Assembly (NCBI GenBank): GCA_002010075.1
Contig: MTMG01000013.1
Location: forward strand, 1 to 64,000
Length of the DNA: 64,000 bases
Direction of reading: 5' to 3'
From: Methanomicrobia archaeon JdFR-19
GTDB lineage: Archaea > Halobacteriota > Methanosarcinia > DSM-18856 > Methermicoccaceae
Shown: piece after piece, positions 1,931 to 53,694 of the stretch
Numbering within the stretch: position 1 is the stretch's first letter
Layout of the letters: every line of letters begins with the position of its first letter
The notes under the pieces: model-generated
Databases searched by the model: none
What the model was told of the DNA's origin: nothing
Seen by the model: the letters and a program-made list of their open reading frames with translations, nothing else
Position numbers and translations under genes: made by a program

Positions 1931-2425
1931 ACTTCCTATGAATCTCCACAAAGAATCCCCAACATAATGCACATTTTTAACAACTTTCCCTCTTCTTCCA
2001 GCCATCTCTCCCCCATCCACCAGAGCCTTCCCTATGCACAGATATTTTCCATGCCCCCCCTCTTTGACAAACACCGTATCACCTACACGAATTGACTCAT
2101 CTGAATAGACAACACCCGGCCCCATAACGTCAGCCCCCCTCACAATATGAGGAACAGCCCCTCTATCCACAACAATCTCTCCCTTTGAAATGCCATTTTT
2201 AAGAGCAAAGTTCAGAGTTGGAACAATCTCATCTTTCAAATAAAGAGCTATGGCATCTCTATTGACGAGAACGATACCTTGAAACTCAGCATGGTCGATA
2301 ACAACGTATTCCATCCTGTCTTCTAACGTGTAGCCCTCACACCATCTCTTGAGTGCATTCAAGACCTTCTTCACCTCACCCCCTCTCAGATGATGTCTCT
2401 TTTTTACCTTCAATTCCCTCACCAA
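1925..2425 (-). CDS. PUA-domain RNA-binding protein
   Basis: A 166-residue protein made of a small basic N-terminal domain (start VRELKVKKRHHLRGGEV) and a C-terminal PUA domain, seen in the VDRGAVPHIVRGADVMGPGV and DTVFVKEGGHGKYLCIGKA segments. Archaeal proteins of this layout are thought to bind tRNA or rRNA, often beside modification enzymes. No catalytic domain is present. It ends in TAA and overlaps cofE tail-to-tail by six bases. The exact substrate cannot be told from sequence. Confidence 0.85.
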   Translation of the reverse strand: MVRELKVKKRHHLRGGEVKKVLNALKRWCEGYTLEDRMEYVVIDHAEFQGIVLVNRDAIALYLKDEIVPTLNFALKNGISKGEIVVDRGAVPHIVRGADVMGPGVVYSDESIRVGDTVFVKEGGHGKYLCIGKALVDGGEMAGRRGKVVKNVHYVGDSLWRFIGSL

Positions 2426-2453
2426 TTGTTCTTAATTCGATAAGTTTAAGTAG

Positions 2454-2720
<267 letters not shown>

Positions 2721-2729
2721 GGTGGTGCT

Positions 2730-2888
2730 ATGTCGAAGGGAACACCCTCGATGAAAGGAGGAAAGAAGACTCACATCAGATGCAGGAGATGTGGTAGAGT
2801 TTCATATCACAAACGCAAAAAGGTTTGTGCTTCTTGTGGGTTTGGTCGTTCTGCGAGGAGGCGTTCCTACAGCTGGAGGAAGAAATAA
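2730..2888 (+). CDS. rpl37e: 50S ribosomal protein L37e
   Basis: A 52-codon gene. The product starts [13 protein letters not shown] and carries two CxxC pairs (C18/C21 and C33/C36) that bind zinc, followed by the Arg-rich tail ending SYSWRKK. This is the full-length archaeal L37e, part of the large ribosomal subunit. The start ATG follows GGTGGT nine bases after the LSm stop, and the gene ends in TAA. A longer open frame in another register runs through it from purF but is not coding here. Confidence 0.96.
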
Positions 2889-2907
2889 TGCCTCGCAGGT
2901 GATTCAA

Positions 2908-4317
2908 TTGAGGGATGCGTGTGGGGTAGTTGGAGTGTGTTTAACACAAGACTCCACAAGAGACGTATTTCCCGTTTTATATTATGCATTGTATGCTCTC
3001 CAACACCGAGGGCAAGAATCTGCTGGCATCTCCATTTTCAGAGAGAGAATGATAACAAAGAAAGGGATGGGTCTTGTGAGCGATGTATTCACCAATGCAT
3101 TCACCTCGGTTTTGGAAGGGAAGATAGGAATAGGGCATGTTAGATACTCAACAACAGGAGAGTCAGATATTATAAACTGCCAGCCATTCGTTGTTAGTTC
3201 CGAGGGAAGAGAAATCGCAATTGCACATAATGGTAATCTTGTGAATGTTATTGAGTTGAAACGTGAGCTTCAGAAGGAAGGTGCAGTTTTCATATCAACA
3301 TCAGACACCGAGGTGATTGCCCAGTTGCTTGCGAGGGAGATGAGGAGAAGAGACGAACTTGAAGCAATCTCCTTTTTGATGAGGGTTTTGAGAGGTTCTT
3401 ACTCTCTTGTCATTCTGATAAACGATACACTCTATGCAATCAGGGACCCATATGGTGTGAAACCGCTGTGCATAGGAAGATTGGAGGATGGATATGTTGT
3501 TGCCTCGGAGAGTGCGGTTATCGATACACTCGAGGGAAAACTCATGAGGGATGTGAAACCGGGCGAAGTCATCATCATCAGGGATGGAGAAATGGAGAGT
3601 CAGAGGCTGTACAAACTAAACACAAAAGCTCATTGTGTGTTTGAATACATATACTTTGCAAGACCAGACTCCATAATAGATGGGAAATTAGTGTACGATG
3701 TCAGGATGAAGATTGGAGAGACGCTATGGGATGAACATCCTATCGATGCAGACATCGTATCTCCTGTTCCAGACTCTGGAATCACCTTCGCCATCGGATT
3801 CTCTCGACGTTCAGGAATTGAGTACCTTGAAGGTCTCATAAAGAACAGATATGTTGGGAGAACGTTCATCATGCCAGCCCAGAGAGAGAGGGAGCTTGCT
3901 GTGAGACTCAAGCTCAACACCATCAGCTCAAACATAGAAGGGAAAAATGTCGTGCTTGTTGATGACAGTATCGTCAGAGGGACAACCTCGAGGAGGATAG
4001 TTGATATGGTCAGGGCATGCAATCCGAAGAGCATACATCTGAGAATAGGAAGCCCACCAATAAAATCGCCTTGTTATCTTGGCATAGACATGCCAACACG
4101 TGAGGAGTTGGTGGCATCATCCAGAACCACAGATGAGATTGCTCGTGTTGTCGGTGTGGACTCTCTTGGATATCTGAGCATTGATGGGCTTGTGGATGCG
4201 ATTGGCATGGGGGAAGATGATTTATGTCTCGGGTGTCTCACAGGAGTTTATCCAATGGAGATACCTGGAGAGAAATGTAAAGCTATTCAGGCAAGGCTAT
4301 CCAATTACATAATATGA
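2908..4317 (+). CDS. purF: Amidophosphoribosyltransferase PurF
   Basis: First committed enzyme of purine synthesis: makes phosphoribosylamine from PRPP and glutamine. The N-terminal Ntn-hydrolase glutaminase starts at the conserved DACGVVGV with the catalytic Cys, followed by ALQHRGQESAGI. The phosphoribosyltransferase domain has the PRPP loop VVLVDDSIVRGTTSRR. I place the start at TTG 2908 because AGGTGAT lies just upstream; GTG 2899 is the alternative, and either is removed by propeptide processing. ATG starts farther upstream fall inside rpl37e and are not credible. The stop is TGA. Confidence 0.93.
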   Translation: MRDACGVVGVCLTQDSTRDVFPVLYYALYALQHRGQESAGISIFRERMITKKGMGLVSDVFTNAFTSVLEGKIGIGHVRYSTTGESDIINCQPFVVSSEGREIAIAHNGNLVNVIELKRELQKEGAVFISTSDTEVIAQLLAREMRRRDELEAISFLMRVLRGSYSLVILINDTLYAIRDPYGVKPLCIGRLEDGYVVASESAVIDTLEGKLMRDVKPGEVIIIRDGEMESQRLYKLNTKAHCVFEYIYFARPDSIIDGKLVYDVRMKIGETLWDEHPIDADIVSPVPDSGITFAIGFSRRSGIEYLEGLIKNRYVGRTFIMPAQRERELAVRLKLNTISSNIEGKNVVLVDDSIVRGTTSRRIVDMVRACNPKSIHLRIGSPPIKSPCYLGIDMPTREELVASSRTTDEIARVVGVDSLGYLSIDGLVDAIGMGEDDLCLGCLTGVYPMEIPGEKCKAIQARLSNYII

Positions 4318-4330
4318 CTTATAAATATAA

Positions 4331-4345
4331 CCTAAAATTTTTAGG
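4331..4345. promoter_or_regulatory. Palindromic operator candidate for the feo operon
   Basis: The sequence CCTAAAA-T-TTTTAGG is a perfect 7+7 dyad in the AT-rich promoter region 49 to 63 bases before feoA. A further TTCCTAA half-site follows at about 4360. DtxR/IdeR/MDR1-type metal repressors recognise TTAGG-rich dyads, and a DtxR-family gene closes this same operon. Autogenous iron-dependent repression is therefore a reasonable inference, not shown by the sequence alone. Confidence 0.5.
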
Positions 4346-4393
4346 GATACCTATTTTTATTCCTAACATATATAGTGGTGTGTGGTGTCTTAG

Positions 4394-4648
4394 ATGGATG
4401 CAGGTGTAGGTCTGATGAACAAAGTACGTCTGAATGAACTCAAACCACACGAGGAGGGTGTGGTTGTGGAACTCATGGCAGGTAAAGGCTTGACCAGAAG
4501 ACTGTGTGAGATGGGGATAGTTCCCGGAGCAAGGGTTAAAGTTCTTCTAATAGGACACGGTCCAATTGTAGTTGAGACAATGGGTTCAAGAATTGCCATT
4601 GGAAAGGGAATGGCATCCAAGATTCTTGTTGAGAAGATTCGTAAATGA
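4394..4648 (+). CDS. feoA: Ferrous iron transport protein A (FeoA)
   Basis: Small SH3-like cytosolic protein that assists FeoB. After a short leader, the domain reads RLNELKPHEEG and then GLTRRLCEMGIVPGARV, ending GSRIAIGKGMASKILV, which is characteristic of FeoA. ATG 4394 gives 84 residues; ATG 4415 gives 77, closer to the usual family length, and is a credible alternative. It lies 40 bases upstream of feoB on the same strand. It ends in TGA. Confidence 0.9.
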   Translation: MDAGVGLMNKVRLNELKPHEEGVVVELMAGKGLTRRLCEMGIVPGARVKVLLIGHGPIVVETMGSRIAIGKGMASKILVEKIRK

Positions 4649-4688
4649 GCAGATACATCATGATTATTGGTTTATGGAGAGTACATAA

Positions 4689-6635
4689 ATGAGAACAGAC
4701 ACTCCACAAACTCAAATTAGGAAGTCAGGAGTGAGAATTGCTCTGATAGGCAATCCTAATGTTGGAAAGACCACTCTTTTCAATGAGTTGACAGGAGCCA
4801 ATCAGAGCATTGGAAACTGGCCCGGTGTTACAGTTGAGAAGAAGGAGGGAGTTTTTGTCCACAAAGGTGTTAGAGTGGAGGTTGTTGACCTCCCTGGGCT
4901 GTATGGTTTTGGTTCTGACTCGGTTGCAGAGAAAATAGCGAGGGATTACCTCATAAACGAGAAACCAGATGTTGTTGTGGACATTGTGGACGCCTCAAAT
5001 CTCATGAGAAATCTGTACCTTACACTCCTCTTGCTTGAAATGGATGTTAATGTGATAGTTGTCTTGAATATGTTCGATGAAGCCACAAAGAGCATGAAAA
5101 TAGATGTGGATATGCTCTCCGAACTTCTTGGTGTTCCTGTTGTACCAACAGTTGCGAAGAGGGGGGAGGGAATAGGTGAGCTGAAGGATGCAATATTGAA
5201 AGAGGCTGGAAAGTCAAGGAGGAGCTTTGTAGGTTATGGAGAAGATGTTGAAACCATTATTACAAAAATAGAGCAAGAGCTTGATAACCTGCCCAAGACA
5301 ATTCCCCCGAGGTGGGTTGCTCTCAAACTTCTCGAGGGAGATGAGGAGATAAAGGAAATCGTTGGAGAGGTGCGTTTGGAAGATATGCCCAACATCAGAG
5401 GGGACGTCATTCTTGCTCAAAGGAGGTACGAGGCAATACGCAATATATTGAGGCTGTGTGTTGAGAAAAAAGGAGAGAGGTGGAAGATAACTGACAGAAT
5501 TGACAAGCTCATCCTCCACAAATATCTTGGTTACCCAATATTTTTGATAATCTTGTGGGGGGCTTTTGTTTTCTCGTATAGAGCATCTGCCCCAATATCA
5601 GACCTGATAGATTCATTTTTCTCGATTCTCGGTGAGTACTCTTCATCTTATTTGAGTGGTACAGTTGGCTCTTTTGTGTCTGGTGCAATCATCTCAGGTC
5701 TCGGGTCTGTGCTTGTGTTTATCCCACCGATATTCTTTGTGTTCTTTGTCATTGCTGTACTCGAGGACACAGGATACATGGCAAGAGTTGCATTCCTCAT
5801 GGACAGAGCAATGGGGGTTGTTGGGTTGAGCGGGAAGTCATTCATACCACTGGTTCTCGGATTTGGATGCAATGTACCAGCGATAATGGCAACCAGAACG
5901 ATTGAGAGTCAGAGAGAAAGAATTCTTACAATACTCATCAATCCGCTGATGTCTTGTAGTGCGAGACTCCCTGTGTATGTTCTGATTGCCGGAGTATTTT
6001 TCAGAGAAAATGCAGGGACTGTGATATTTTCAATGTACTTACTCGGAATACTGCTTGCAATGGTTCTTTCTGTGGTGTTTGGTAGAAGTGTTCTGAGAGG
6101 AGCACCTTCCCCCTTCATAATCGAGCTTCCACCATATCGTATTCCATCGGTAAAGACAGTTCTCATGGCTACATGGACGAGAGGAAAACATTTCCTTGAA
6201 AAGGCGGGAACTGTGATATTTGGTGTTGTCATCCTCGCATGGTATCTCTCATCCTACCCAACTGGGACGATTGAAGGATCATATCTTGCCCAGATTGGAC
6301 AGTTTCTCTCGCCTTTGATGGAACCCCTTGGGTTTGACTGGAGAATTACATCTGCACTTCTGATGGGCTTTCTTGCAAAGGAGGCGGTGGTTGGCACACT
6401 TGGAGTTCTTTACGGAACTGAGCTTTCCACTGCCCTTTCAGCCTCGATAGACCCCGTCAGTGCATATGCATTCATGGCGTTTACATTGCTATATGTTCCG
6501 TGTGTCGCTGCAATGGCGGTAGTGAGACAGGAGACAGCTTCATGGAAATGGACTGCATTCGTTATTTTGTATGAACTTTTACTCGCATATACAGTCGCCC
6601 TATTCATAGTCTTGATAGGTAGATTGATATTTTAA
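4689..6635 (+). CDS. feoB: Ferrous iron transporter FeoB
   Basis: Fe(II) importer with an N-terminal G domain and a membrane channel. G1 is GNPNVGKTT, G3 is DLPG and G4 is NMFD, followed by a helical GDI-like region. The membrane part has the two family gate motifs: GFGCNVPAIMATRTIE and, after it, NPLMSCSARLPVY, each with its conserved Cys. At 648 residues it is normal length with many transmembrane helices. It sits between feoA and the dtxR-family gene. The TAA stop is followed at once by the GGAGGGAG ribosome site of the regulator. Confidence 0.96.
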   Translation: MRTDTPQTQIRKSGVRIALIGNPNVGKTTLFNELTGANQSIGNWPGVTVEKKEGVFVHKGVRVEVVDLPGLYGFGSDSVAEKIARDYLINEKPDVVVDIVDASNLMRNLYLTLLLLEMDVNVIVVLNMFDEATKSMKIDVDMLSELLGVPVVPTVAKRGEGIGELKDAILKEAGKSRRSFVGYGEDVETIITKIEQELDNLPKTIPPRWVALKLLEGDEEIKEIVGEVRLEDMPNIRGDVILAQRRYEAIRNILRLCVEKKGERWKITDRIDKLILHKYLGYPIFLIILWGAFVFSYRASAPISDLIDSFFSILGEYSSSYLSGTVGSFVSGAIISGLGSVLVFIPPIFFVFFVIAVLEDTGYMARVAFLMDRAMGVVGLSGKSFIPLVLGFGCNVPAIMATRTIESQRERILTILINPLMSCSARLPVYVLIAGVFFRENAGTVIFSMYLLGILLAMVLSVVFGRSVLRGAPSPFIIELPPYRIPSVKTVLMATWTRGKHFLEKAGTVIFGVVILAWYLSSYPTGTIEGSYLAQIGQFLSPLMEPLGFDWRITSALLMGFLAKEAVVGTLGVLYGTELSTALSASIDPVSAYAFMAFTLLYVPCVAAMAVVRQETASWKWTAFVILYELLLAYTVALFIVLIGRLIF

Positions 6636-6653
6636 GGAGGGAGAAATGGTAGT

Positions 6654-7094
6654 GTGATAACCAGAAGAGTGGAAGACTATCTGGAGGCAATATACACAAT
6701 CTCACTGAAAAAGGATTATGTGAGAGTGAAAGATATCGCCAGCGAACTCAACGTCAGGCCAGCTACCGTTACCGAAATGATTCAGAAACTCGGAGAGATG
6801 GGACTTGTGAGCTATGAGAAACATGGCCCGATATCACTCACATCAAAAGGACTTGAGATAGGGATGAGTGTGAGGGACAGACATGATAACTTGAAGAAGC
6901 TACTGCTCATAATTGGTGTTCCAGAGGACATTGCAGAGAGTGATGCTTGCATAATGGAGCATTATTTACATCCAAAAACAGTAGAGCATATAAAGAAGTT
7001 CGTAAAATTCGTCGAAACATCGCCAACCACACCAAAATGGATAAAGCATTTTAAGGAATATGTAGATACAGGAGTGCATTCATGCGATAGATAA
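6654..7094 (+). CDS. DtxR/MntR-family metal-dependent repressor
   Basis: 146-residue regulator. The N-terminal winged helix (RVEDYLEAIYTI, then DIASELNVRPATVTEMIQKL) is followed by a metal-sensing and dimerisation domain with the ESDACIMEHYLHP segment, which holds the typical Cys, Glu and His ligands. The gene starts at GTG 6654 after a strong GGAGGGAG site; the nearby ATG 6646 hits a stop at once. There is no SH3 third domain, so this is the short form. Its place at the end of the feo operon makes iron the likely effector. The stop is TAA. Confidence 0.9.
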   Translation: MITRRVEDYLEAIYTISLKKDYVRVKDIASELNVRPATVTEMIQKLGEMGLVSYEKHGPISLTSKGLEIGMSVRDRHDNLKKLLLIIGVPEDIAESDACIMEHYLHPKTVEHIKKFVKFVETSPTTPKWIKHFKEYVDTGVHSCDR

Positions 7095-7096
7095 AT

Positions 7097-7273
7097 TCAA
7101 TCAATTTTCTCGATTGCCCCGTATCTACATGTCCGCATACACACAGCACACCCACTGCACTTTTCGAGGTCTATGTGTGCCTTATCTTGGAGAGATATGG
7201 CTCTGTATGGGCAAACCGCAACACATTCTCCACATCCCACACACCTCTCCATAAGCACAACACACTTTGCCAT
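7097..7273 (-). CDS. Small 2x[4Fe-4S] ferredoxin
   Basis: 58-residue electron carrier with two complete cluster motifs: CVGCGECVAVCP near residue 10 and CSGCAVCMRTC near residue 39, the second continuing to YGAIEKID. The frame is open farther upstream but that part is not ferredoxin-like, so the internal ATG at 7273 is chosen. No Shine-Dalgarno precedes this ATG, so translation may be leaderless. It is divergent from the ATP-grasp gene by 26 bases. The redox partner is unknown. Confidence 0.88.
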   Translation of the reverse strand: MAKCVVLMERCVGCGECVAVCPYRAISLQDKAHIDLEKCSGCAVCMRTCRYGAIEKID

Positions 7274-7299
7274 GGAGGATGTAGTGGAGGTTGAAGCAT

Positions 7300-8238
7300 A
7301 TGAAGGTATTAGTTGCTGAATATGCTTATGCAACCGAATTCCAGCCTCTCATCAACGAGGGAATTGCCATGCTCTCCACACTCGTTCGTGATTTTGAGGA
7401 GTGTGGATGTGAAGTTGAATATCTCGCTCCACTCAGGGCGAAACATTTAAAATGGGGGAGAGGTGTTCCATGCTCTGATTTTGAGAGAGATTTTGAGCAG
7501 AGACTCAAATATGTGGATGCAGCTCTCGCAATAGCTCCAGATGATATGCTCTATCAACTCAATAGCGTAGTAGAAGAATATTGTGTAAATCTTGGATGTC
7601 CACCGAAAAGTGCGGGAGAGTGTGCTGATAAAAGAGCAACTTATCAGGTGTTGAAAGAGAATAACATTCCAACCCCAGAGCCATGGAAGGGTAAGGGAAT
7701 GTGCGTCGAGAAGCCAAGGTTTGGATGCGGTTCTGAGGATGTGTTCATAAGCGATTGTCCCTCAGGCGAGGGATGGGAATTTGTTGGAGGGATGAGTATG
7801 AGTGTGGGATGTGTGGTCTCTGACTCGTGCGCCATTCCACTCACCTTGAATCTTCAGAGGATTTTGATGAAACCAGAGGGAAAGGGAATAAGGGTGGAGT
7901 ACATAGGGAACACAGTTCCTTACCACCATCCAAAGAGAGAAGAGTCATACGAAATTGCCATAAAAGCTTGTAAAGCACTTGGGTGTAGAGGATATGTGGG
8001 GGTGGATGTTGTTGTTGGAGATGATGTGTGGGTGGTGGATGTTAATCCGAGACCTACAACCTCAATAATCGGTGTGAGTGAGGTGCTTGAGAGAAGGGTT
8101 GGTGAATTGATTCTTAGAGCAAGGGTTCCAGAGTTCATTGGTGGGCTTGAGGAGATTCCACAGAGATTGAGGACAAAGGGGGTGTTCTCGTTCACAAAGT
8201 ACGAACTTCCATCAATCCTTGCCAGCATGTTTTCCTAA
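7300..8238 (+). CDS. mfnD: ATP-grasp ligase, probably tyramine-L-glutamate ligase MfnD (methanofuran biosynthesis)
   Basis: 312-residue ATP-grasp enzyme. It begins MKVLVAEYAYATEFQPLINE, has an adenine/phosphate region at KPRFGCGSEDVFIS, and the metal-binding end VDVNPRPTTSIIG. Similar archaeal proteins form the gamma-glutamyl bond of methanofuran from tyramine and glutamate, which would fit the formylmethanofuran dehydrogenase encoded later in the window. The specific assignment rests on overall resemblance, so another amino-acid ligase is possible. ATG 7300 follows GGAGG with good spacing; the in-frame TTG 7291 is less likely. It overlaps the convergent clamp-loader gene by 27 bases. Confidence 0.72.
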   Translation: MKVLVAEYAYATEFQPLINEGIAMLSTLVRDFEECGCEVEYLAPLRAKHLKWGRGVPCSDFERDFEQRLKYVDAALAIAPDDMLYQLNSVVEEYCVNLGCPPKSAGECADKRATYQVLKENNIPTPEPWKGKGMCVEKPRFGCGSEDVFISDCPSGEGWEFVGGMSMSVGCVVSDSCAIPLTLNLQRILMKPEGKGIRVEYIGNTVPYHHPKREESYEIAIKACKALGCRGYVGVDVVVGDDVWVVDVNPRPTTSIIGVSEVLERRVGELILRARVPEFIGGLEEIPQRLRTKGVFSFTKYELPSILASMFS

Positions 8239-14175: not shown

Positions 14176-14832
14176 TTACTCTGGATAGCTGATTTTGATT
14201 GACTCGGAAAGTGCATTTTTATCCAACTTTCCACTTTCAATCAGGCACGCAATCGCCATGGCAACGGGAACAAAGCAAGTGGGCGTGAAGCTATGCTCAT
14301 TTGCGAACTCGTACATCTTCATGGTATGTTCAGACAATTCCCTAGGGTCAATTTCAGGAAGCTCATCTCTTGCTTTCTTGATTATAGGACAGTCCGTCGC
14401 AAAGCTCATCTTTATCTTACCTTCTGGTGTCTTTCTTGCTCTAACAAGTGTTATATGGTCACACAGGGGGGTATTCGCCCTGACTTTAGTCATGTCTCCC
14501 CCTGTTTTAGGTATCTCAATCGTGATGACCGAGTGATGTGCAAGCTGTTTTGAAATCATCCCTATCTCGAGCCACCAAGCATTTGTAATAGCGGTTGGAA
14601 CAGGACACGTGGCAGGCACTTTGTTCTCATTTGCACATCTGTACACGTCATTCATAAAACGATACAATTCATCCATCCTCACTCCAACACTCTTCAGCTC
14701 ATTCACAAAACCCTGAAGATGAGGGCATTCAGTTTTTACATCCGCTCTGAAAATGCCCTCTTCGTCCTGCCATCCATCCACGAGTGCAGTGTATCCACAG
14801 ATTGTATCCTCTACCCTGACTTTGGAGACCAT
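14176..14832 (-). CDS. Duplicated Cys-containing domain protein, DUF6951-like, unknown function
   Basis: 218 residues made of two tandem copies of one domain. Copy 1 runs from GYTALVDGW through ECPHLQGF to ATCPVPTAITNA. Copy 2 runs from CDHITLVRA through DCPIIKKARDELP to PTCFVPVAMAIA. Each copy keeps a CP pair and a later Cys-x-VP motif, which suggests metal or cluster ligation. It resembles small methanogen proteins of the DUF6951 type; I am moderately sure. ATG 14832 follows GGTGG, so it is chosen over ATG 14853. It stands alone with its own terminator-like hairpin. TAA stop. Confidence 0.7.
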   Translation of the reverse strand: MVSKVRVEDTICGYTALVDGWQDEEGIFRADVKTECPHLQGFVNELKSVGVRMDELYRFMNDVYRCANENKVPATCPVPTAITNAWWLEIGMISKQLAHHSVITIEIPKTGGDMTKVRANTPLCDHITLVRARKTPEGKIKMSFATDCPIIKKARDELPEIDPRELSEHTMKMYEFANEHSFTPTCFVPVAMAIACLIESGKLDKNALSESIKISYPE

Positions 14833-14898
14833 CTTTCCACCAAAAAAGTCCAAATCTTTATGTTATAATAATATTTTGATAATCATACCTATCTTTCA

Positions 14899-16818
14899 TC
14901 ATCTACCTTTCCTGAGTTCTTTCGCCCTTTCTGTTCTGTACTCACTTATTATCGAACTGATTCTTTCTTCGTCCCTCTTTCTCTTCCATTCCTCTCTTTC
15001 TCTCATCCATGTTTCTATTGCTTTGTTCAGTGAGGACGGTGATGTGCAAAGTGCATCATCAAAGCTCAATACAACCCCCTCAGCTTTTATTACAGGAAGA
15101 CCAAGCTCCAAAAACCTCTCATATGCTGAATGAGCCATCTCACCTTCGTACAGAACCGCCCTCGGTGAGAGAGAGTGCAGGATTTCGGCCGTTCCTGCAC
15201 CCCCACCACTGGCATCTTTGAGATACACAACATCTCCCTTTCTCACGTTCGACCTTATGCATTCTCTTGTGAATCTATCCACGACCTTCAAAGGAATCAG
15301 TGAGCCATCCATCTCTTTCTTTCTTATAGCCTTGAGCATCTCCACCCTCTCCCTCAACCTCTCTATCTCCTCATCCCTCTTTCTGATTTCATTCCTTAGC
15401 AGTTCAACATCTTTTCTGAGTTTGCTAACAAGCTCATCTCTTCTCGTCTCTCGGTATACTTCAGACCTGAGCATCTCCACCCTCTCCCTCAACCTCTCTA
15501 TCTCCTCATCCCTCTCCTCAATCTCCCTCTTGAGTTCTTGATTGTACTCTATAAGGCGTTTGATTGTCTTCTTCTGCTTTGAGATTTTATTTCTCAGCCT
15601 CTCCTTCTCTTCGTCTGTTGGTGTTTCCTCTTCTCTCTCCTCTATCTCGGGTTTGCATGTGGCATAGCTCTCCTTAACTTTTTTCTGTCTTATCACGTCT
15701 GCTTTTATCTGTTCGATATCTGAGAATGGGGGAGCTCTCATTTCTGCTTTCAGAAGTTTGTTCTTGTACATCCTAAATGCGTGATATGCTGCAGCGATTG
15801 CATCTCTTTCATGGTCATTTTTCGGATTGAATTGGGATGAAAGCTTTCTCTTCTCCTCTACTGAAAGTTTTGAAACAACACACTCCACTCCAAACATCCT
15901 GCTAAGCCTCTCAACAGTTTTTGGAGCTGGCGCAACGTCTGATGCAAATACGACAGGGATGCCAAAGGACAGTATTTTCTCAATTGCATCAGATATCGAT
16001 AATCCTCTTTCAGAGGTGATACCAAGCAGGTTTCCGTGGAGGTCGAAGGCTGCAATACCCATCGTCGTCCCAGGGTCTATGCCAACAATGATGTATTTCT
16101 TCTTTGCAAGTGGCACAAACTCAATACCACTTCTCTCAACTCCACTCACCACCACCCTCACATCTGCATGTCTAGATGAGCTGATTGGTACTTTGTCCCG
16201 TGCCTCCTCAACCACGAATTCCACTCTTGAGTACCCTCCAAACCCCTTCTTTGTGTTCATCTCAAACTCAAAACCACCATCTTTTAGAGTCTTCTCTATG
16301 TTTCTTGCCATCTCTCTGACAGCACCATGCACCTTTCTGCGATATCTGTTCTGACTCCATCCCCCTCTTCCGAGAGACCTACCTCTCGATACGACTATCT
16401 TTGTTTTATTTTCAAATACCTCGACAGCGTGCCCAATTCCCAGAAGAGCCAACTTTGCACAAGCTCTTGCTTCATCCAGAGGGTCAGTCTTCGAGATTCG
16501 AATTCCATGTGCCTTTGCAAGTGCTGAAAGTGAATGCTCTCTGTCGGTGACCTGTACAAGTTTTGTATTTGGTGGAAGCAGTGATAACAGATTTACGAGC
16601 TCTCTCTTATCACGTGAAAGTTCGAAGATGTTATCACACGCAATCATTTCAGGTTTGTATTTATTTGCGAGTCTCAGAATTCTGTGTTTGCTCACACCCC
16701 GGATTTCCTCTACCGTATCCTCACCCACTACAGCAACCGAGTACCTTGGGATGGAGTGTGATGAACCCTTTTCTATATCCACTCCGAAAACGACTTTTAT
16801 GGGTCTCTCGATGAACAA
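14899..16818 (-). CDS. DUF460 archaeal RNase H/RuvC-like protein
   Basis: 639 residues. The N-terminal part has the DUF460 features VFGVDIEKG, MIACDNIFEL and KTDPLDEARACAKLAL. A second RNase H-like segment reads VGIDPGTTMGIAAFD and NDHERDAIAAAYHAF. Residues of roughly 400-500 form a highly charged coiled coil with two copies of DEEIERLRERVEML. A C-terminal domain follows (GDVVYLKDASGGGAG). The family is predicted to act on nucleic acids, but its role is unproven. The start is a TTG (no in-frame ATG nearby), so the exact N-terminus is uncertain. TGA stop. Confidence 0.88.
   Translation of the reverse strand: MFIERPIKVVFGVDIEKGSSHSIPRYSVAVVGEDTVEEIRGVSKHRILRLANKYKPEMIACDNIFELSRDKRELVNLLSLLPPNTKLVQVTDREHSLSALAKAHGIRISKTDPLDEARACAKLALLGIGHAVEVFENKTKIVVSRGRSLGRGGWSQNRYRRKVHGAVREMARNIEKTLKDGGFEFEMNTKKGFGGYSRVEFVVEEARDKVPISSSRHADVRVVVSGVERSGIEFVPLAKKKYIIVGIDPGTTMGIAAFDLHGNLLGITSERGLSISDAIEKILSFGIPVVFASDVAPAPKTVERLSRMFGVECVVSKLSVEEKRKLSSQFNPKNDHERDAIAAAYHAFRMYKNKLLKAEMRAPPFSDIEQIKADVIRQKKVKESYATCKPEIEEREEETPTDEEKERLRNKISKQKKTIKRLIEYNQELKREIEERDEEIERLRERVEMLRSEVYRETRRDELVSKLRKDVELLRNEIRKRDEEIERLRERVEMLKAIRKKEMDGSLIPLKVVDRFTRECIRSNVRKGDVVYLKDASGGGAGTAEILHSLSPRAVLYEGEMAHSAYERFLELGLPVIKAEGVVLSFDDALCTSPSSLNKAIETWMREREEWKRKRDEERISSIISEYRTERAKELRKGR
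15333..15515 (-). repeat. 48-bp exact direct repeat inside the DUF460 coiled coil
   Basis: Bases 15333-15380 and 15468-15515 are identical, 135 bases (45 codons) apart in the same frame. Both encode the charged helix segment RDEEIERLRERVEML. Identity at the DNA level, including third positions, indicates a recent internal duplication or gene conversion rather than old convergent coiled-coil sequence. Confidence 0.9.
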
Positions 16819-16824
16819 CCCCCC

Positions 16825-16835
16825 TTTATATATTT
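16825..16835 (+). promoter_or_regulatory. TATA box of pyruvate kinase
   Basis: TTTATATATTT lies about 25 to 30 bases before the GTG start of pyk. In Archaea transcription starts about 25 bases downstream of the TATA box, which would put it at or next to the GTG. That predicts a leaderless mRNA, in agreement with the lack of a Shine-Dalgarno site. Confidence 0.6.
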
Positions 16836-16855
16836 GATTTTAACAATATAAAAAT

Positions 16856-18265
16856 GTGAACTCAGAAACAAGAACAAAAATCATGGCAACTCTTGGACCC
16901 TCTTCAGATGTGCTTGAGCTGGCGAGAGAGGGGGCAAGAGCATTCAGACTGAATCTCTCATACAACGATATCGAATGGCACACTTCGATGATAGAGCGGG
17001 TGAGAGAGTCAGAAGATAAACTCGGCTTGCCATTGGGAGTTGTGGCAGATCTCAGGGGCAGAAAGCTCAGAATCTCCTCTACAGAGTATGATGTGGTTGA
17101 AGGTCAGACTGTTGTGTTGGAAAGTGACACTCACTCCCCTTCATATGGCATCCACACATCTCAAAGGCTCACCATCGATGCAGATATTTTTGAGCAACTG
17201 GAAGAAGGCGCCCAACTGATACTTGGTGATGGGGATGTTGTGTTGAAGGTTGAGAAGTTGTCAGACACCCAAGCCTCTGCTCGAGTCGTGAGTGGTGGCA
17301 GAATAAAGGACAATATGGGACTTAGGGTGGTTGGTGTATCCTTGGAACTTCCACCCATCACAAAACTCGATAGGGAATATGTGAGGAAATTGTCCAAACT
17401 CGTCGATTATTTTGGCCTTTCGTTTGTCTCTTCTTCCCGAGATATGGAGGAACTAAGAAAACTCTCACACGTGCCAATAATAGCGAAGATAGAGAGAAGA
17501 GAGGCTGTTGAGAATTTGAGAGAGATTGTAGAGTGTTGTGATGGTGTGATGGTTGCCCGCGGAGACCTTGGGGTGGAACTCTCGCTTGAAAAGGTTCCTT
17601 TAATCCAGAAAGAAGTTCTAAGACTCTCGAGGGCACTTGGAAAGCCGGGAATTGTTGCAACACAGATGCTTGAGTCGATGCTTCACTCTCCATCTCCCAC
17701 CAGAGCCGAAGTGGCAGATGTTGCAAATGCCATACTTGATGGAGCAGACACTTTAATGCTTTCCGGAGAAACAGCGGTTGGAAAGTATCCTAGGGAAGCG
17801 GTTAGATGGATGAAGAAGATAATAAGCGAGACAGAGAGATTTGGTAAGTTCGAGCCAATTCAGGAGATTGAAAAATCAACAGTTTCCTCAGCCATCAGCA
17901 AGGCTGTTTATGTTCTTGCATCTGAACTAAATGCAGGTGCAATATTCACTCCGACAGCAACAGGCACAACTCCAAGACTGGTTGCAAGATTCAGACCATC
18001 CCAGTGGATTTATGCTCTCTCTTATTCTCAGAGAACTGCAAGAAGACTCTCGATTGTCTGGGGTGTTATTCCATTGAGAGAGGAATTCAGAGAGGATTTG
18101 GATGCGTTAACAAACAAAGTGATTGAGCTTGCCGGGGAAAGAAAAGGGGTGGTTGTGCTGACCGCAGGTCTGGGAGCCCCTGGAACAACCAATCTTATAA
18201 AGGTTGTTTCTTTGGACTCCCCCACAACTCAACCTACCGATTTCCCTGATTTTATTCGTGAATAA
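16856..18265 (+). CDS. pyk: Pyruvate kinase
   Basis: Converts phosphoenolpyruvate and ADP to pyruvate and ATP. 469 residues. The N-terminus RTKIMATLGPSS, the ADLRGRKLRIS region, catalytic VARGDLGVEL, IVATQMLESM and SGETAVGKYP are all present. The C-terminal regulatory domain begins near GAIFTPTATGTTPRL. The start is GTG 16856; ATG 16854 in the other frame hits a stop at once. Divergent from the DUF460 gene and convergent with the HTH gene, which it overlaps by 37 bases. TAA stop. Confidence 0.95.
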   Translation: MNSETRTKIMATLGPSSDVLELAREGARAFRLNLSYNDIEWHTSMIERVRESEDKLGLPLGVVADLRGRKLRISSTEYDVVEGQTVVLESDTHSPSYGIHTSQRLTIDADIFEQLEEGAQLILGDGDVVLKVEKLSDTQASARVVSGGRIKDNMGLRVVGVSLELPPITKLDREYVRKLSKLVDYFGLSFVSSSRDMEELRKLSHVPIIAKIERREAVENLREIVECCDGVMVARGDLGVELSLEKVPLIQKEVLRLSRALGKPGIVATQMLESMLHSPSPTRAEVADVANAILDGADTLMLSGETAVGKYPREAVRWMKKIISETERFGKFEPIQEIEKSTVSSAISKAVYVLASELNAGAIFTPTATGTTPRLVARFRPSQWIYALSYSQRTARRLSIVWGVIPLREEFREDLDALTNKVIELAGERKGVVVLTAGLGAPGTTNLIKVVSLDSPTTQPTDFPDFIRE

Positions 18266-31873: not shown

Positions 31874-32512
31874 ATGAGATTTGTAGCTTTGGTACTACTC
31901 ATGCTGTCATTAACCCTTGTGCTTGGCTGTCTCGAAGCAAAGGAAGCATGGCCAGCTGTGATACCTGACGATGTGCTTGAAAGTGCGGGATGGACAGAAG
32001 TTGGTAATGTGAGTTATGAGACATTTGAGGAGGAGATTGCGGGGTTGAAGGTGAGTGTGAACGTTGCTGTTCAGCAATATTCATCCACGAAATCCATCTC
32101 AGAGAGCATCCCTTCCATGCCAGTTGAATCATCTGCTGCGGGTCTCGTAACCGCAAGAGTACTTGTGCCGGGCGGAGTATCTCTTCCAGAGCCAGTCATG
32201 GAAAAGATTATAGACAAAATGATTCAGGCTTACGTAGAGCAACTCGACATAACTGGGTTGAGGCATGTTGAGGACGGCGACTTCAAGACAGATAGCGGTT
32301 TTGATGCGAAGTATTCTGTGTACAGGGGCGTGTTGGACAAAGAAGTTCGCTTGAATGTCGAGATTCTCGCAGCCCACTGGAACGATGATGAATCCACCAT
32401 AATAGTGGTTGCTTTGTATCCATACGGGGATGTGGTTTACTCAGGGCGCACGATAGGGAGCATTCAGAGTTTAAGGGGCGAGGTTTTAGAACTCATAAAG
32501 AAGGTTGAATGA
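31874..32512 (+). CDS. Secreted lipoprotein, DUF6517-like
   Basis: 212 residues. A signal peptide with basic start MRFVALVLLMLSLTLVLGC ends at a lipobox-like LVLGC, so the mature protein probably has a lipid-modified Cys19. The remainder is a soluble beta-rich domain (for example GLVTARVLVPGGVS) that recalls small archaeal lipoproteins of the DUF6517 type. Its TGA overlaps the ATG of Mre11, an odd operon partner. Function unknown. Confidence 0.75.
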   Translation: MRFVALVLLMLSLTLVLGCLEAKEAWPAVIPDDVLESAGWTEVGNVSYETFEEEIAGLKVSVNVAVQQYSSTKSISESIPSMPVESSAAGLVTARVLVPGGVSLPEPVMEKIIDKMIQAYVEQLDITGLRHVEDGDFKTDSGFDAKYSVYRGVLDKEVRLNVEILAAHWNDDESTIIVVALYPYGDVVYSGRTIGSIQSLRGEVLELIKKVE

Positions 32513-33702
32513 GCGGTATGACACAGTTCATACATACAGCAGATGTGCATCTCGGATATGTACAGTATGGACTCCATCAGCGATTCATCGATTTTGGTAG
32601 GGCATTTTCTCAAGTGGTATCCTATGCCATCGAGAACGATGTGGATTTTGTTCTGATATCTGGGGATCTGTTCCATAAGCGAAACATCAATGCTCTCACA
32701 TATCTTCAGGCATATGAGCTTCTTTCAAGATTGAAGGGCATTCCTGTGTTCGTCATAGAGGGCAATCATGACCTTGCATACTTCAAGGACAGACACAGTT
32801 GGCTCGAAGCTCTTGACCGGCAGGGGTTGATTACTTTACTGAAAACCCATGAGGGGACCCTCTCAAAGAAAGTTATTGATGTTGGTTAGAAAGTAGCTGT
32901 GTGTGGTGTTGGGTATGCTGGCTCTCAGACCCCACTGTACATACCAGAAATAAAGAAAGAGCTGGAAGAGGAGGATGCAGACTGCACAATCCTCATGATG
33001 CACTGTGGAGTAGGACCTTATTCGTATGGGGTAGGGGATGGTATCTCTCTCGACGAGATAATGGAGTTGAAAGGGGTAGTTGATTATCTTGCACTCGGAC
33101 ACTATCACACGAAGTTTGAGTTGGATGGATGGATATACAACCCCGGCAGTCTTGAAACAGTATCGTTATCTGAAAAGGGACCAAAAGGATTCTACCATTT
33201 CTGTGATGGGGAGGCGAAGTTTGTCGAGATTTCCGTCAGAAAGATTGAGAGGATTGTGGTCGATGTTGGTGATGCGAATTCTCCAGATGAATTGTATCAG
33301 ATAGTAGGCAAGGTCTGTGATGGCGTTGATGGGAATGATGCAATAGTATCTCTCACCCTCACTGGAGACCTGAGGTTCTCCATAAACTCCCTATCGCTCA
33401 AGAGGGTGAAGGAGATTGTGAAGGAGAGACTGAGTCCGATTTATGTGGATGTCTCCCTTAAAAGACATCTTGCCCCCACCCCTGTTTACAGAGCAAAAAG
33501 CGGAATAAAGAATGTTGAAAGGGATGTAATTGAAGCGATTGTAAGGTCTGATGCCCGATATTCAGTATGGTCAAAATTACTCAGTGAGTTGCTGATCGAT
33601 GTGAAGGGAACAGCAGCAAAAGGAGACACCGATAGAGCATATGAAATGCTTGAAAAGACTTTTCGGATGATGGAGGAGCAGCATGCTGATTCGAGAGATT
33701 GA
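32509..33702 (+). CDS. mre11: Mre11 nuclease with in-frame TAG
   Basis: DNA double-strand-break repair nuclease, partner of Rad50. The phosphoesterase motifs are all present: HTADVHLG, SGDLFHKRN, EGNHDL, MMHCGVG and LALGHYHTKF. TAG at 32887-32889 (codon 127) falls between KVIDVG and KVAVCGVGYAG. Without reading it, the two C-terminal metal-binding motifs would be lost. Full length is 397 residues. ATG 32509 overlaps the lipoprotein stop; ATG 32518 is the alternative. Overlaps rad50 by 20 bases. TGA stop. Confidence 0.93.
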
Positions 33703-36394
33703 GCTCAAGAATGTGAAATCATACAAGAGAGAGAAGATAGAGTTCCTTGAGGGTGTCAATGGAATAATTGGTGAGAACGGAGCTGGAAAGAGCACAATAC
33801 TCGAAGCGATAGGATATGTTCTGTTTGACCACATCCCTTACAAAAAGGATGAATTCTTGAGGAAGGGAGAGAAGACGGGGGAGGTTGTAGTCTGGGTTGA
33901 GAGTGACGATGGAATATATGAAATAAGGAGGGGACTCGGGAAAAATACAAAATACTCTGCTAGGTCAAGAAACTTCAAGATTGAGGGGAAGAAGGATGTA
34001 CTTGACCTGATAAAGGATAGGATTTTCAAAGGTGTGTTGGAGAGCGAGAGACTTTCACCATTTTTTGAACAGCTTGTTGGTGTCCCTCAAGGCACATTCA
34101 ACTCTCTGTTCATGATGGGGAGTGAAAAGAGGAAGATATTCAATGAGATTCTAAGGATAGATGAGTACGACAAGGCTTTTGATAATCTGAGGGATGTCAG
34201 GAGAAGAATCGAGGTTGAGATTGGTGAGCTGGAAGGTAAGATGAAAGAACTGAAGATAAGGCTTGAAAAGTATCCCGAGATTCTGGACAGAATTGAGAGA
34301 TTGAAGTACGAGCTTGCAGAATACTCAAGTGCAAGGGACGAAGTCAGAAAGATGCTGGGTGATGTGGAGACCGAACTTGAGAGTATGGAAGAGTACGCAG
34401 ACGAGCTTGCAGAACTCAGAGATACTGTAAAGTCGCTGGAGGGACAGAGGGATGCAATAAACGCAAGACTTGAAGAGGTGGAAAAAAGACTTCACGAGAG
34501 CAAAAATGCGTATGATGAGGTTATCAAAATTCAGAATGAGTATGAGGAATATCTCAGATTGAAAGATGAACTTGAGAAACTTGAGGCTGAGGAGGAAAAA
34601 AGAAGAAAGGCTGAAATGGAGTATGTAGAGTGTCTGAACAGAATAAAACACCTCACCTCAAAGATTGACATGCGGGATTCTCTCAGAGAAGAGTGTCTGA
34701 ATCTTGAAAAGGACATAGAGGGGATTAAAGAGGACGTTGAAAGAGAAAAACAACTTCTTGAGTTGCTGTCTGCTGTTGAGGATAGGCTGAAGAGGGTTGA
34801 AGATGCTGGGAGAAGATTGGAGGAGGCACGGAGGAAGCTGGAAGAGAGGGAGAGGATATAGGAAAGGATGGCAGACATCACAAAGAAAATCGAAGAGCTG
34901 AAGCCTCTTGCTGAAAAGGAGACGCAACTGAAAGAGAAAATGGCATATCTCGAAGGGTTGCTAAACGACCTTCGCAAGAGCGTCGATGAGTTGAGGAAGA
35001 AATAGAAGGAGGAAAGGGGAAATAAGTGTCCGATACTTGAAAGGAACTGCCCACTCGTGAATGATTTTAGAGAGTACTTTTGCAGTGAGATTGACAGGAA
35101 GCTGGAAGATATGAGAAAAACTCAACACGAAATTGAACTCATCAGCGATGCGTTATCCGAACTCAACTCTCCAAGTGCAGAACTTGAAAGACTCAGAGGT
35201 GCGTATGATGAAGCTCTTTCACAGCTCGGGGATGGGGCGGACATCGAAGCATCGATAAATGAAAGTGAGAACATCATCAGGGAAGAGGGTGAAAGTATAA
35301 GAGGAGTTCTTTCAGAGTTCGGTCTTGAAACAGACGTGCATAGTGCTGTGAAGACAATCAAACAGGAGATTGAGAGACTTGGAAATCCCGGAAAAAGAGA
35401 GAGTGAGCTTAAAGGTCAGCTCACGGCAAAGAGAAATATACTCTCAGAGCTTGAAGGTTTGGAGAATGAGTTGGAAGCAGAGTAGGAGAAATGTGAGGAT
35501 ATCATCGCATTTTTGGAATCTCTTTCTGAAGTGCCAGCAAGAATAAACACACTCAAAGATTTGATGAACGAATTGGATGAGAGTTATAGGCGGTATCTGA
35601 GCCTACTGCCAACTGCAAAGAGATATGAGCAAGACCTTGACGAACATCTAAAACTATCACTTGAGATATCAGAGATTGAAGGCATGATAGATGCTGAATG
35701 GCAGAAATACGAGGAAATATTAAGTCGTTATCAGGATGAGGAGCATTATGAACTCATAAAGACAAAGAAAGAACTCGATGAGATTCTAAGAACTCTCGAT
35801 GAGCACATCAGGGCAATAGAACGTGGGATGGAGAAAGTGATGTCTGAGAAAGAAGAGCTTGAAGATGTGATTGATAGGGCTTCTGAGGTAGAGCGGAGTT
35901 TAAACTCGAGGAAAAGGTTTCTTGAGTTTGTCTCTTTTGTGAGAGAGACATTGAAGAGGGCTTCATCGATGGTGGTCGAGAGAGTTGTGAGAGAGGTTAG
36001 TCAGGAGGCAAACGAGATATTCTGTGAAACGCTTGGCACATACTCACAGAGACTCATATGGTCATCAGAGCCAGAGAGCATATACGATGTGTTTGTGGAG
36101 GAGGGCGGAGAACTCAGGAGTTTCAAACAGCTAAGCGGGGGAGAACAGATAACAGCATCTATTTCACTCAGACTTGCATTACTGAAATTGCTTGCAGATA
36201 CAGATTTCGTCTTTCTTGATGAGCCAACTGTCAATCTGGACAGTATGAGGAGAGAGAACCTTTCCACTCAGATCATGAACGTCAAAGGATTCAGACAGAT
36301 ATTTGTGATCACCCATGACGATTCGTTCAGCGATAAGTATGATAACGTGATATACATAGAGAAGTCAGACGGTGTAAGCAGAGTCGTCAGATGA
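33683..36394 (+). CDS. rad50: Rad50 ATPase with three in-frame TAG codons
   Basis: SMC-like ATPase of 903 residues. Walker A is GENGAGKST (residues about 32-40). The C-terminal lobe has signature LSGGEQITAS, Walker B FVFLDEPT and switch ITHDD. Between them lies a long charged coiled coil. TAGs at 34859-34861, 35003-35005 and 35483-35485 are codons 393, 441 and 601. The zinc-hook region sits at the exact centre but is CPILERNC (C449 and C456) instead of the usual CPxC. Reading TAG as sense restores both ATPase halves in one chain. TGA stop. Confidence 0.94.
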
Positions 36395-37916: not shown

Positions 37917-38393
37917 ATGCTGAATATGAAGTTTGTGATACTCATCGTAGTGGTGGGGCTATTGTCTCTTGGGTGTGTATCTCCTCAGCAAACCTCCGAA
38001 CAGCCGAATATGACAGAACAACTCCAGAACATGACACCCGAGAGTGAGGAACAGATTGTCTCCCCATCCCAACCTCAAGAAACTCAACCTCAAGAAACTC
38101 TTCAGCCAGAACAACCCCCAATCCAACAGCCTAAAAACATTACTGTGTGGCTCGTTGATTACAGCATCACACCAAAGAATGTTAGCATAGGTGTCGGTGG
38201 AACAGTGAGTTTTGTGCATTACCAGTCATCTGGCAATCCTGTATTTGTTTTGGTGAGCGATGAGGGGCTGTGGCAACCACAGAGAATGGACTACGGTGAT
38301 ATTTTCTCATACACCTTCACGCAAAAGGGTGTTTATCATTTCCATGTGGAAGGATTCGAAAAAATCATGAGCGGGACGATTGTAGTCACATGA
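37917..38393 (+). CDS. Secreted cupredoxin-like lipoprotein
   Basis: 158 residues. Signal peptide with lipobox LLSLGC, then a Gln/Pro-rich linker with a tandem PQETQPQET, then a plastocyanin-like fold (SITPKNVSIGVGGTVSF to YHFHVEGFEKIMSGTIVV). The copper Cys expected in Y-x-C-x2-H is replaced by His (YHFHVEG), while the later Met is kept, so a standard blue-copper site is unlikely. The TGA overlaps the trm1 ATG. ATG 37926 is an alternative start. Confidence 0.8.
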   Translation: MLNMKFVILIVVVGLLSLGCVSPQQTSEQPNMTEQLQNMTPESEEQIVSPSQPQETQPQETLQPEQPPIQQPKNITVWLVDYSITPKNVSIGVGGTVSFVHYQSSGNPVFVLVSDEGLWQPQRMDYGDIFSYTFTQKGVYHFHVEGFEKIMSGTIVVT

Positions 38394-39526
38394 GGACAAT
38401 CAGAATAACAGAGGGCAGTACAACTGTTGAAGTGCCTGTGCAGGATTAGACATCTTCATATCCTCCTTCCTCAGCTCCTGTTTTCTACAACCCTTTTCAG
38501 GAGATGAGCAGGGATTTGACAGTTTGCGTGGTCTCCCTACTTCAAGAGGCCAAGAACGTCAGTTATCTTGATACACTTGCAGCAACCGGCATAAGAGGAC
38601 TCAGAGTTGCAAACGAGAGCGGGGCAGAGGTTGTACTGAATGACTGGGACAAAGAAGCATATGGGCTGTGTGTGAGAAATGCTCAGTTGTGTGGCAAGAG
38701 AGTGGAAGTTCTGAATTAGGATGCAAATCTTTTGATGAGGGCAAGAAAGTTTGACATCGTCGATATAGACCCGTTTGGCTCACCAGCACCGTTTCTTGAC
38801 TCGGGTGCCTTTTGTGCGAGAAAGGGACTGTTCCTGACAGCAACGGACAGAGCTACGTTATCGGGTGTGCATAGGAAAACCGCCTTCAGAAAATATCATG
38901 CACTTCCTCTAAAAACCGAGTATCATGCAGAAGTTGGACTTAGGATACTGTTGTATGCGGTTGCATGCTCTCTTGCCAGATATGGGAAGGCTATGATACC
39001 TTTGCTGTCTTACTCCAGTATCCATTATTATCGCATATTTGTGTTGGTCAGGAAGGGGGTGGAGAATGCGGACAAGATGTTGGAAGATGTGGGACACATT
39101 TTACACTGTCTCAAGTGTGGGTACAGGGAGGTGAAGAAGGGCGTGTGTTCGCAAAAGAGGGAGTGTGAGAAGTGTGGTGAAAAACTTGTGTATTGTGGAC
39201 CTATTTGGATTGGTAACTACAAAGATTCTGAATTTTGTGGTAGGGTTGCCGAAAAACTCAGAGGAGGGAAGTTCAATTCCACCCCCACAGCTTTGAAACT
39301 TTTGAGCAGACTATCTTCTGAACTTGACATTCCAACATGTTATGACTGCCATCTAATCGCCCGAAGACTCTCGTTATCCCCTCCAACCATGGAAAAACTT
39401 CTTGATGCTCTCACAAAAGAAGGATATAAAGCATCGAAGACACATTATGGTGGAACGCTCTTCAAGACAGATGCCCCCCTTGATGTGATTGAGGATGTTC
39501 TGATAAAATTACAAAATAAAAAATAA
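38390..39526 (+). CDS. trm1: tRNA (guanine26-N2)-dimethyltransferase Trm1 with two in-frame TAGs
   Basis: Methylates G26 of tRNA with SAM. Motifs: PVFYNPFQEMSRDL near residue 30, the SAM-binding YLDTLAATGIRGLRVANE, and the catalytic DIDPFGSPAPFLDSG. The C-terminal Zn ribbon has CLKCGYREVKKGVC and CEKCGEKL. TAG at 38447-38449 (codon 20) and 38717-38719 (codon 110, just before DANLLM) are read as sense. Full length is 378 residues, typical for archaeal Trm1. Without the first TAG the conserved N-terminus would be untranslated. TAA stop. Confidence 0.92.
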
Positions 39527-52241: not shown

Positions 52242-53047
52242 CCATAGGAACCTAGCACCTTCACTTCATCTGCCTTCTCTCTCAAAGCTTTCAGGGCATC
52301 AGCCACCACCTCGTCTTTCACATGCCCTTCGAGGTCTATGAAGAAGAAGTACTCCCCCATTTCTCTCTTCTTTGATCTGGACTCGATTCTTGTCAGATTG
52401 ATTCCTCTCCTTGCAAACTCCCCCAGTATCTCATAGAGTGCTCCAGGTCTATCCTTTTTCAGATAAACAGCCAACAGAGTTTTATCCCTTCCTGTTTTCT
52501 CTCCTACCTCTCTCGACAGGAGAACGAATCTCGTATAGTTCTCTTTCCTGTCCTGCACATCGGCTTTGAGAATGTGAAGGGAGTATTCTCGTGCCGCCTC
52601 CTCAGAGGCGATTGCAGCATACGTTGGATTCTTCGAAGCAAGTTCTGCGGCGTTGGAGGTGGATGTGGTGTTCAGCACCTTTATACCATACTCTTTTGTG
52701 AGTGACATTACGAACGAGCGACACTGGGCGAGTGCCTGTGGATGGGAAACCACTACCTCAATCTCCTCGATTTTTGAAGCTCTTGAAAGAAGATGATGCC
52801 TTATCTCAAGCACAACCTCCCCACATATCATGACATCGTGTGATAGTATGGCGTCCAACACCTCTCCAACCGAGCCTTGAAGCGAGTTCTCAATCGGCAC
52901 AACTCCCAGACTCCCCCCCTCTTCGACCTCTCTGACAACATCCTCTACACAATCAAAGAACATGATTTCTGCGCCCTCTACGAGCTTTCTTGCTGCGATA
53001 TGTGAAAACGAACCTTTTGGCCCAAGTGTTGCAACTTTGTGTTTCAT
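52235..53047 (-). CDS. pheA: Prephenate dehydratase
   Basis: Converts prephenate to phenylpyruvate for phenylalanine. 270 residues. The dehydratase domain has VATLGPKGSFSHIAA, GVVPIENSLQGSV and NYTRFVLLSR. The ACT domain has RPGALYEILGEFARRGINLT and the ESR segment, which binds Phe for feedback control. Its ATG overlaps the true TGA of the upstream diphthine-ammonia ligase (ATGA), which only exists if TAG is read through. TGA stop. Confidence 0.95.
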   Translation of the reverse strand: MKHKVATLGPKGSFSHIAARKLVEGAEIMFFDCVEDVVREVEEGGSLGVVPIENSLQGSVGEVLDAILSHDVMICGEVVLEIRHHLLSRASKIEEIEVVVSHPQALAQCRSFVMSLTKEYGIKVLNTTSTSNAAELASKNPTYAAIASEEAAREYSLHILKADVQDRKENYTRFVLLSREVGEKTGRDKTLLAVYLKKDRPGALYEILGEFARRGINLTRIESRSKKREMGEYFFFIDLEGHVKDEVVADALKALREKADEVKVLGSYGW

Positions 53048-53694
53048 ACAGTTTCACCATCTATCACATAATCACCAGAGTCTCCGTACCATCTAACATT
53101 TCCCTACACCACTCTTATTCTCTTCTTGAAATGTGGAGCATTCAACACAAATGTTTCGTACTCACCGCCCTCACCAAGCGGATGTATCCCATACTTCCTA
53201 CATACTTCAATGAGTTGGTATGCAGTTCTTTTATCAAGAACTTTTCCAAGCCACTCCTTTCCGAGTCCATCTGCTGCCACCCTGACCACCATCACATCCA
53301 TTTCATCAACCATTTCCAATAACGTCTTCTCAGGCTCACATCCCCACAGTGGAGAAATTGTCTCAAGCCCCACCTTTTCTGCAATACTTTCAATTCTTGA
53401 CTTCTGGTACACAGATGCGACAGCCCCCGTACACACACCATCAACTTTGAGGAGCGAAAGACTCTCTTCAAGTTCCATCAGTTCATCTTCTCCCGAATGG
53501 TGTAATATTATTGGGAGACCCCATGCACTACTTACGGTGGGCATCATATGAATGTTTGTGTAGTGGTACATATGGGATTCTTCAGAGGGAGGTATGATTG
53601 AGAGCAGGCAGACGATTTTATGTCCAGCTTTACTTGCGAGGTATGCTGCGTATGTGGAATCCTTCCCGCCAGATACGAGGGCTACGAGTCTCAA
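53044..53694 (-). CDS. dph6: Diphthine-ammonia ligase extended through a 3' TAG
   Basis: 216 residues, final step of diphthamide formation on aEF2. The ATP-pyrophosphatase start is LVSGGKDSTYAAYLA, with GEGGEYETFVLNAPHF near the end. The first in-frame stop is TAG 53104-53106 (codon 197), right after KKRIRVV. Continuing gives GNVRWYGDSGDYVID, the usual C-terminal strand of this family, then TGA 53044-53046, which overlaps the pheA ATG. The start is TTG 53694, overlapping the fdhD stop (TTGA). Confidence 0.88.

Follow-up and report, generated by a model that had tools for sequence, protein, structure and literature searches.

TAG as a very probable pyrrolysine sense codon in a second, divergent Rad50-type gene and other genes of Methanomicrobia archaeon JdFR-19

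Known pyrrolysine systems and the machinery of this genome

Pyrrolysine decoding, low usage of TAG as a stop and predicted extra pyrrolysine proteins are already known (PMC4153887), also from a non-methanogenic lineage (PMC9723677). In the accepted model for archaea, UAG is decoded through competition between Pyl-tRNA and aRF1, without obligatory mRNA elements (PMC9499178). In 'Ca. M. alvus', 16 further Pyl proteins have been predicted and TAG accounts for 1.6% of the stops (PMC4153887, PMC9499178), and it has been argued for this organism that new in-frame TAGs can persist once decoding is efficient (PMC4153887). Separate pylSn and pylSc genes occur in few archaea (seven genomes), for which PMC9499178, citing Guo et al. 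2022, gives Methanomicrobia archaeon JdFR-19, a relative of the Methanosarcinaceae, as an example. Our analysis started from a window of the genome of this uncultured archaeon (the whole stretch of DNA that was analysed, 64,000 nucleotides) and was extended to other contigs. Certain archaea reportedly use a 'Pyl code', in which all TAG codons are read as pyrrolysine (Kivenson et al., Science 2025), and the present genome would resemble them in having TAG as a genome-wide pyrrolysine sense codon.

The pyrrolysine system in this genome is complete. A tRNA-Pyl(CTA) was detected by ARAGORN, whose fold has a six-pair anticodon stem and a five-base D loop, and a tRNA-Pyl with the CTA anticodon is also present in the sister, an independently assembled MAG of the same genus ('Methanosarcinales archaeon isolate B74_G9', QMVI01000003.1). 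The main loci are as follows:

1000-2226 of a contig 6 stretch: pylT and, after it, PylSn and PylSc as separate genes
823-2988 of a stretch (contig 2, about 124.8-126.2 kb), reverse strand: Pyl-type trimethylamine methyltransferase MttB and the adjacent corrinoid protein (MttC)

PylSn and PylSc matched TIGR03912 with 94.4 bits (cut-off 51.15) and TIGR02367 with 297.9 bits (cut-off 178.15), respectively. PylB and PylC, which adjoin each other in tandem, and PylD, located on contig 18, scored 417.9, 335.0 and 222.2 bits, each above its NCBIfam cut-off. MttB (TIGR02369, 699.9 bits) carries a TAG at the expected pyrrolysine site (VAGTOTDSKLP). A single aRF1, full-length and with a high-scoring family match, is encoded in the genome. 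The genome is like those of Methanosarcinaceae and Methanomassiliicoccales in pylT, pylS, pylB, pylC, pylD, the Pyl-containing MttB and low TAG stop usage (PMC4153887, PMC9499178). With the archaeal PylSn+PylSc class (PMC9499178) it shares the division of the synthetase between two genes, pylSn and pylSc, in a Methanosarcinaceae relative. The synthetase is split in bacterial style, although the class of this archaeon also includes the Methanosarcinaceae. Neither this genome nor the sister yielded McrA (MAGs ~90% and 59% complete), and the lineage may be non-methanogenic, possibly a methylamine user.

A second Mre11-Rad50 pair with in-frame TAG codons

The features of the window locus and of the related operon elsewhere in the genome are listed below:

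32509..33702, forward strand: Mre11-type nuclease, 397 aa, with TAG at codon 127; it overlaps the start of the Rad50-type gene by 20 nt, and both the gene order and the TAG are shared by the sister
32887..32889, forward strand: in-frame TAG (codon 127) of the Mre11-type gene; the sister also has TAG here, beside a two-codon insertion
33683..36394, forward strand: second, divergent Rad50-type ATPase, 903 aa, with three in-frame TAG codons and a TGA stop, matched over its full length by Rad50/SMC profiles
33770..33793, forward strand: Walker A GENGAGKS, codons 30-37
34859..34861, forward strand: TAG codon 393, in the ascending coiled-coil helix (AF2 model, residues 385-520); TAG in the sister
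35003..35005, forward strand: TAG codon 441, 8 residues N-terminal to the first hook cysteine; TAG in the sister
35027..35050, forward strand: hook C449-P-I-L-E-R-N-C456 (C-x6-C), a loop between two helices
35483..35485, forward strand: TAG codon 601, in the descending coil arm; TAT (Tyr) in the sister
36131..36145, forward strand: ABC signature LSGGE, codons 817-821
36206..36226, forward strand: Walker B FVFLDEP, codons 842-848
500-7765 of a contig 13 stretch, reverse strand: canonical HerA-Mre11-Rad50-NurA-like operon

Translation of the Rad50-type frame runs without TAA or TGA up to the TGA at codon 904 and places TAG at codons 393, 441 and 601 of 903, as originally predicted. Each of the five other frames of the gene contains 12-84 TAA and TGA codons. 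When the 510 codons 3' of the first TAG were shuffled, none of 2000 shuffles was fully open, and the longest open run was 156 codons. Walker A, LSGGE and FVFLDEP lie in one frame, so that joining the two ATPase half-sites requires the reading of every one of the three TAGs, and the predicted positions of the hook cysteines in the middle of the chain (C449/C456 at 0.50 of its length) and of codon 441 eight residues ahead of the hook (first cysteine C449) were likewise borne out. Searches against Pfam, NCBIfam and PDB gave Rad50/SMC matches on both lobes. The protein resembles the archaeal Rad50 of NF003034 (PRK03918) and the solved heads 3qku and 3aux in its lobes, long coil, mid-chain cysteine hook and adjacent Mre11 gene. 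However, it scores only 273.5 bits over residues 1-901 against the NF003034 cut-off of 700, its hook is C-x6-C rather than CxxC, and its coil contains three TAGs. Because of the score below the cut-off, it is called here Rad50-like, a divergent paralogue outside the NF003034 equivalog, in which the Rad50 hallmarks (Walker A, ABC signature, Walker B, a long coil between them and an Mre11 partner gene) are present.

Three stops in one frame are typical of decay under the standard code, and the loss of this gene would be tolerable in a genome that has a canonical Rad50 too; a decaying pseudogene or sequencing errors, with the TAGs as nonsense mutations, nevertheless seems extremely improbable. 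The sister Rad50-type protein is 92% identical and keeps TAG at 393 and 441, with TAT at the third site, which excludes a sequencing error or a private pseudogene. The dN/dS ratio against the sister is 0.16 in the segment upstream of the first TAG; the three segments that follow have 0.09, 0.25 and 0.12, respectively; purifying selection on the chain persists past all three TAGs. Also against decay, the gene has no frameshifts, its in-frame stops are all TAG and never TAA or TGA, though no stop triplet is more frequent here than TGA, and the genome has a complete pyrrolysine system.

The classical CxxC zinc hook is absent from the Rad50-type protein. An AlphaFold2 model of residues 385-520, built from two sequences (mean pLDDT 89), predicts two long helices with a connecting loop, in which C449 would lie within the loop and C456 at its end, and it places residues 393 and 441 within the ascending helix. 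Other archaea encode full-length relatives that can be aligned along residues 2-901 and have no stops (29-34% identity for the best matches). In this alignment, position 441, anchored by the hook, is mostly occupied by the hydrophobic or aromatic residues F, I, L or Y, and position 601 is mostly polar; for distant relatives, the coil is aligned with less certainty at 393 and 601. The C-x6-C hook, as CPxL-x3-C, is common to most of the best-matching relatives. A Rad50 subgroup with the CPxL-x3-C hook instead of CxxC occurs in many genomes of the phylum, and no report of metal binding by this hook was found in the literature.

In the canonical HerA-Mre11-Rad50-NurA operon on contig 13, Rad50 has a CPVC hook, and the Rad50 and NurA-like genes carry one TAG each. 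An extra, unassigned 206-aa ORF with two TAGs lies between HerA and Mre11. The Rad50-type protein of the window has only 26% identity to this canonical Rad50, and, to judge from their sequences, the Rad50-type and Mre11-type genes are a second, divergent Mre11-Rad50 pair. With this canonical Rad50 encoded as well, the view of the window gene as an essential repair ATPase, on which the original prediction relied, lacks support; an essential single Rad50 was rejected for the same reason. Assignment to a defence system was rejected too, as the PADLOC matches look like generic ATPase similarity. In the Mre11-type gene, an apparent TAG/GTT pair with the sister was set aside as an alignment artefact of the two-codon insertion, the TAG itself being conserved.

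TAG codons in other genes

A total of 257 coding frames, with 72,138 codons, were conserved between the compared parts of the two genomes (848 kb here, 302 kb in the sister). In these frames, an internal TAG was counted as well-flanked if it had at least 30 aligned conserved codons on each side. There were 47 such TAGs in 37 of the 257 frames (~1 gene in 7), and 40 of the 47 are also TAG in the sister. Around them, the excess of differences at third positions is about equal on both sides (493/774 upstream versus 507/763 downstream). They occur, among others, in the genes for glycogen debranching enzyme, ThiDN, an XPD-type helicase and Trm1, and in alanyl-tRNA synthetase:

38390..39526, forward strand (window): Trm1 tRNA dimethyltransferase, with two in-frame TAGs (38447, 38717), both TAG in the sister
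14434-17148 of a contig 4 stretch, reverse strand: alanyl-tRNA synthetase, with an in-frame TAG at residue 187; GAG in the sister

With 47 TAGs in 37 of 257 frames, three TAGs in the Rad50-type gene are not unusual here, and the idea of an exceptional TAG load was dropped, since three against ~0.7 expected by length is a mild excess (Poisson estimate, P about 0.03). An Asn-synthase-type frame (14822-15625 of its stretch, reverse strand, 268 codons) has TAGs at residues 203, 210 and 218, all of them TAG in the sister; these three TAGs lie within 16 codons, and the third-position bias 3' of them is weaker. The TAGs of TyrRS and deoxyhypusine synthase were set aside as evidence, being upstream of the recognised domain and perhaps in leaders.

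The sister codons that face a TAG are mostly one-step sense neighbours (CAG, GAG, AAG, TAT, TAC, TGG and TCG, that is, Q, E, K, Y, W and S). TAG has no single preferred partner residue, which would suit a suppressor tRNA, mutated or undetected, that inserts a standard amino acid at TAG, and the tRNA scan covered about two thirds of the genome. Such a tRNA is nonetheless highly unlikely: in the 848 kb scanned, the sole tRNA detected with a CTA anticodon is tRNA-Pyl, adjoining PylSn and PylSc, and MttB retains TAG at its expected pyrrolysine site.

Alternatively, TAG could be ambiguous, read partly or under methylamine growth, such that truncated and full-length Rad50-like proteins coexist and the TAGs switch the second Mre11-Rad50 complex conditionally. 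In the accepted model, Pyl-tRNA and release factor compete for UAG (PMC9499178), the Pyl cassette of Acetohalobium arabaticum is under trimethylamine control (PMC4153887, PMC9723677), and MttB, MttC and one aRF1 are all present in this genome. We regard this possibility as unlikely, though less so than either decay or a suppressor tRNA, because housekeeping genes hold internal TAGs, above all the alanyl-tRNA synthetase gene, where a conditional switch would be lethal. Its TAG 187 lies inside the catalytic domain (PF01411), and this is the only AlaRS copy found in the genome; TAG decoding must therefore be efficient, an argument stronger than that from the Rad50-type gene. Moreover, TAG is seldom opposite TAA or TGA in the sister (one case, in a 67-codon frame). 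Stop usage was examined at gene ends as well: paired with the sister, these are TGA/TGA in 137 cases, TAA/TAA in 70 and mixed in 10, and the long standard ORFs of this genome end in TGA (112), TAA (66) or TAG (7).

Probable decoding of TAG and its consequences

Taken together, TAG very probably serves this lineage, which is close to the Methanosarcinaceae, as a constitutive sense codon for pyrrolysine, and the TAGs of the Rad50-like gene are most likely near-neutral products of this code rather than regulatory. The original prediction did not name the amino acid; the machinery points to pyrrolysine. Its claim that the TAGs are translated with efficient decoding gains support from purifying selection, the Pyl machinery and the genome-wide TAGs, and only its premise of an essential Rad50 falls away. 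The sequences show the open frame, purifying selection beyond each TAG, two conserved TAGs, the full Pyl machinery, internal TAGs across the genome and the canonical Rad50 as a second copy, while we infer the nature of the residue, the near completeness of its decoding and the neutrality of the sites. On this basis, tRNA-Pyl(CTA), charged by the separate PylSn and PylSc, would outcompete the single aRF1 at UAG. Translation of the Rad50-like mRNA, probably co-transcribed with the Mre11-type nuclease gene, would then continue past each of the three TAGs and give a single chain of 903 aa with pyrrolysine in the coiled-coil arms, and the product would serve as the ATPase of the second Mre11-Rad50 complex. 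The pyrrolysines are most likely near-neutral replacements at tolerant coil positions, with no regulatory switch. Once efficient decoding had been established, new in-frame TAGs could persist, a scenario that the tyrosine of the sister at the third site and the varied partner residues both fit. Partial termination at each TAG by aRF1, lowering the yield of the full-length protein, is possible.

Pyrrolysine decoding and the PylSn/PylSc split are already known, and the sharpest point here is the TAG in AlaRS. Compared with M. alvus, for which 16 further Pyl proteins are predicted in the whole genome, internal TAGs are far more widespread here, in 37 of only 257 compared genes, including the single-copy AlaRS. 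If TAG is a constitutive sense codon, standard gene callers would split or truncate about one in seven of the compared genes, core enzymes included, and pyrrolysine would be an ordinary building block, no longer a specialist active-site residue. We consider it about as likely as not that the reassignment of TAG to pyrrolysine is complete (62 sense codons), with pyrrolysine indispensable for growth on any carbon source; such indispensability would follow from the presence of pyrrolysine in the only AlaRS and many other core enzymes. Pyrrolysine in the only AlaRS would tie general protein synthesis to the pyrrolysine pathway, and an obligate dependence on the 22nd amino acid is directly testable. 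The Rad50-like gene would be a handy reporter, because three successive decodings are needed for its full-length product.

Finally, 17 TAGs lie near gene ends, each 1-24 codons ahead of the next TAA or TGA. The tails that follow them (14 comparable, a small sample) change much as coding sequence does: 15 of 25 differences from the sister are at third positions (p=0.006) and no indels occur in 468 nt; in the sequence after TAA or TGA, about one third of the differences are at third positions, with 38 indels in 9.8 kb. These near-end TAGs could once have been stops and now lead into short C-terminal extensions, or they could be stops that have a backup. An example in the window is the frame at 53044-53694 on the reverse strand, with TAG at 53104.
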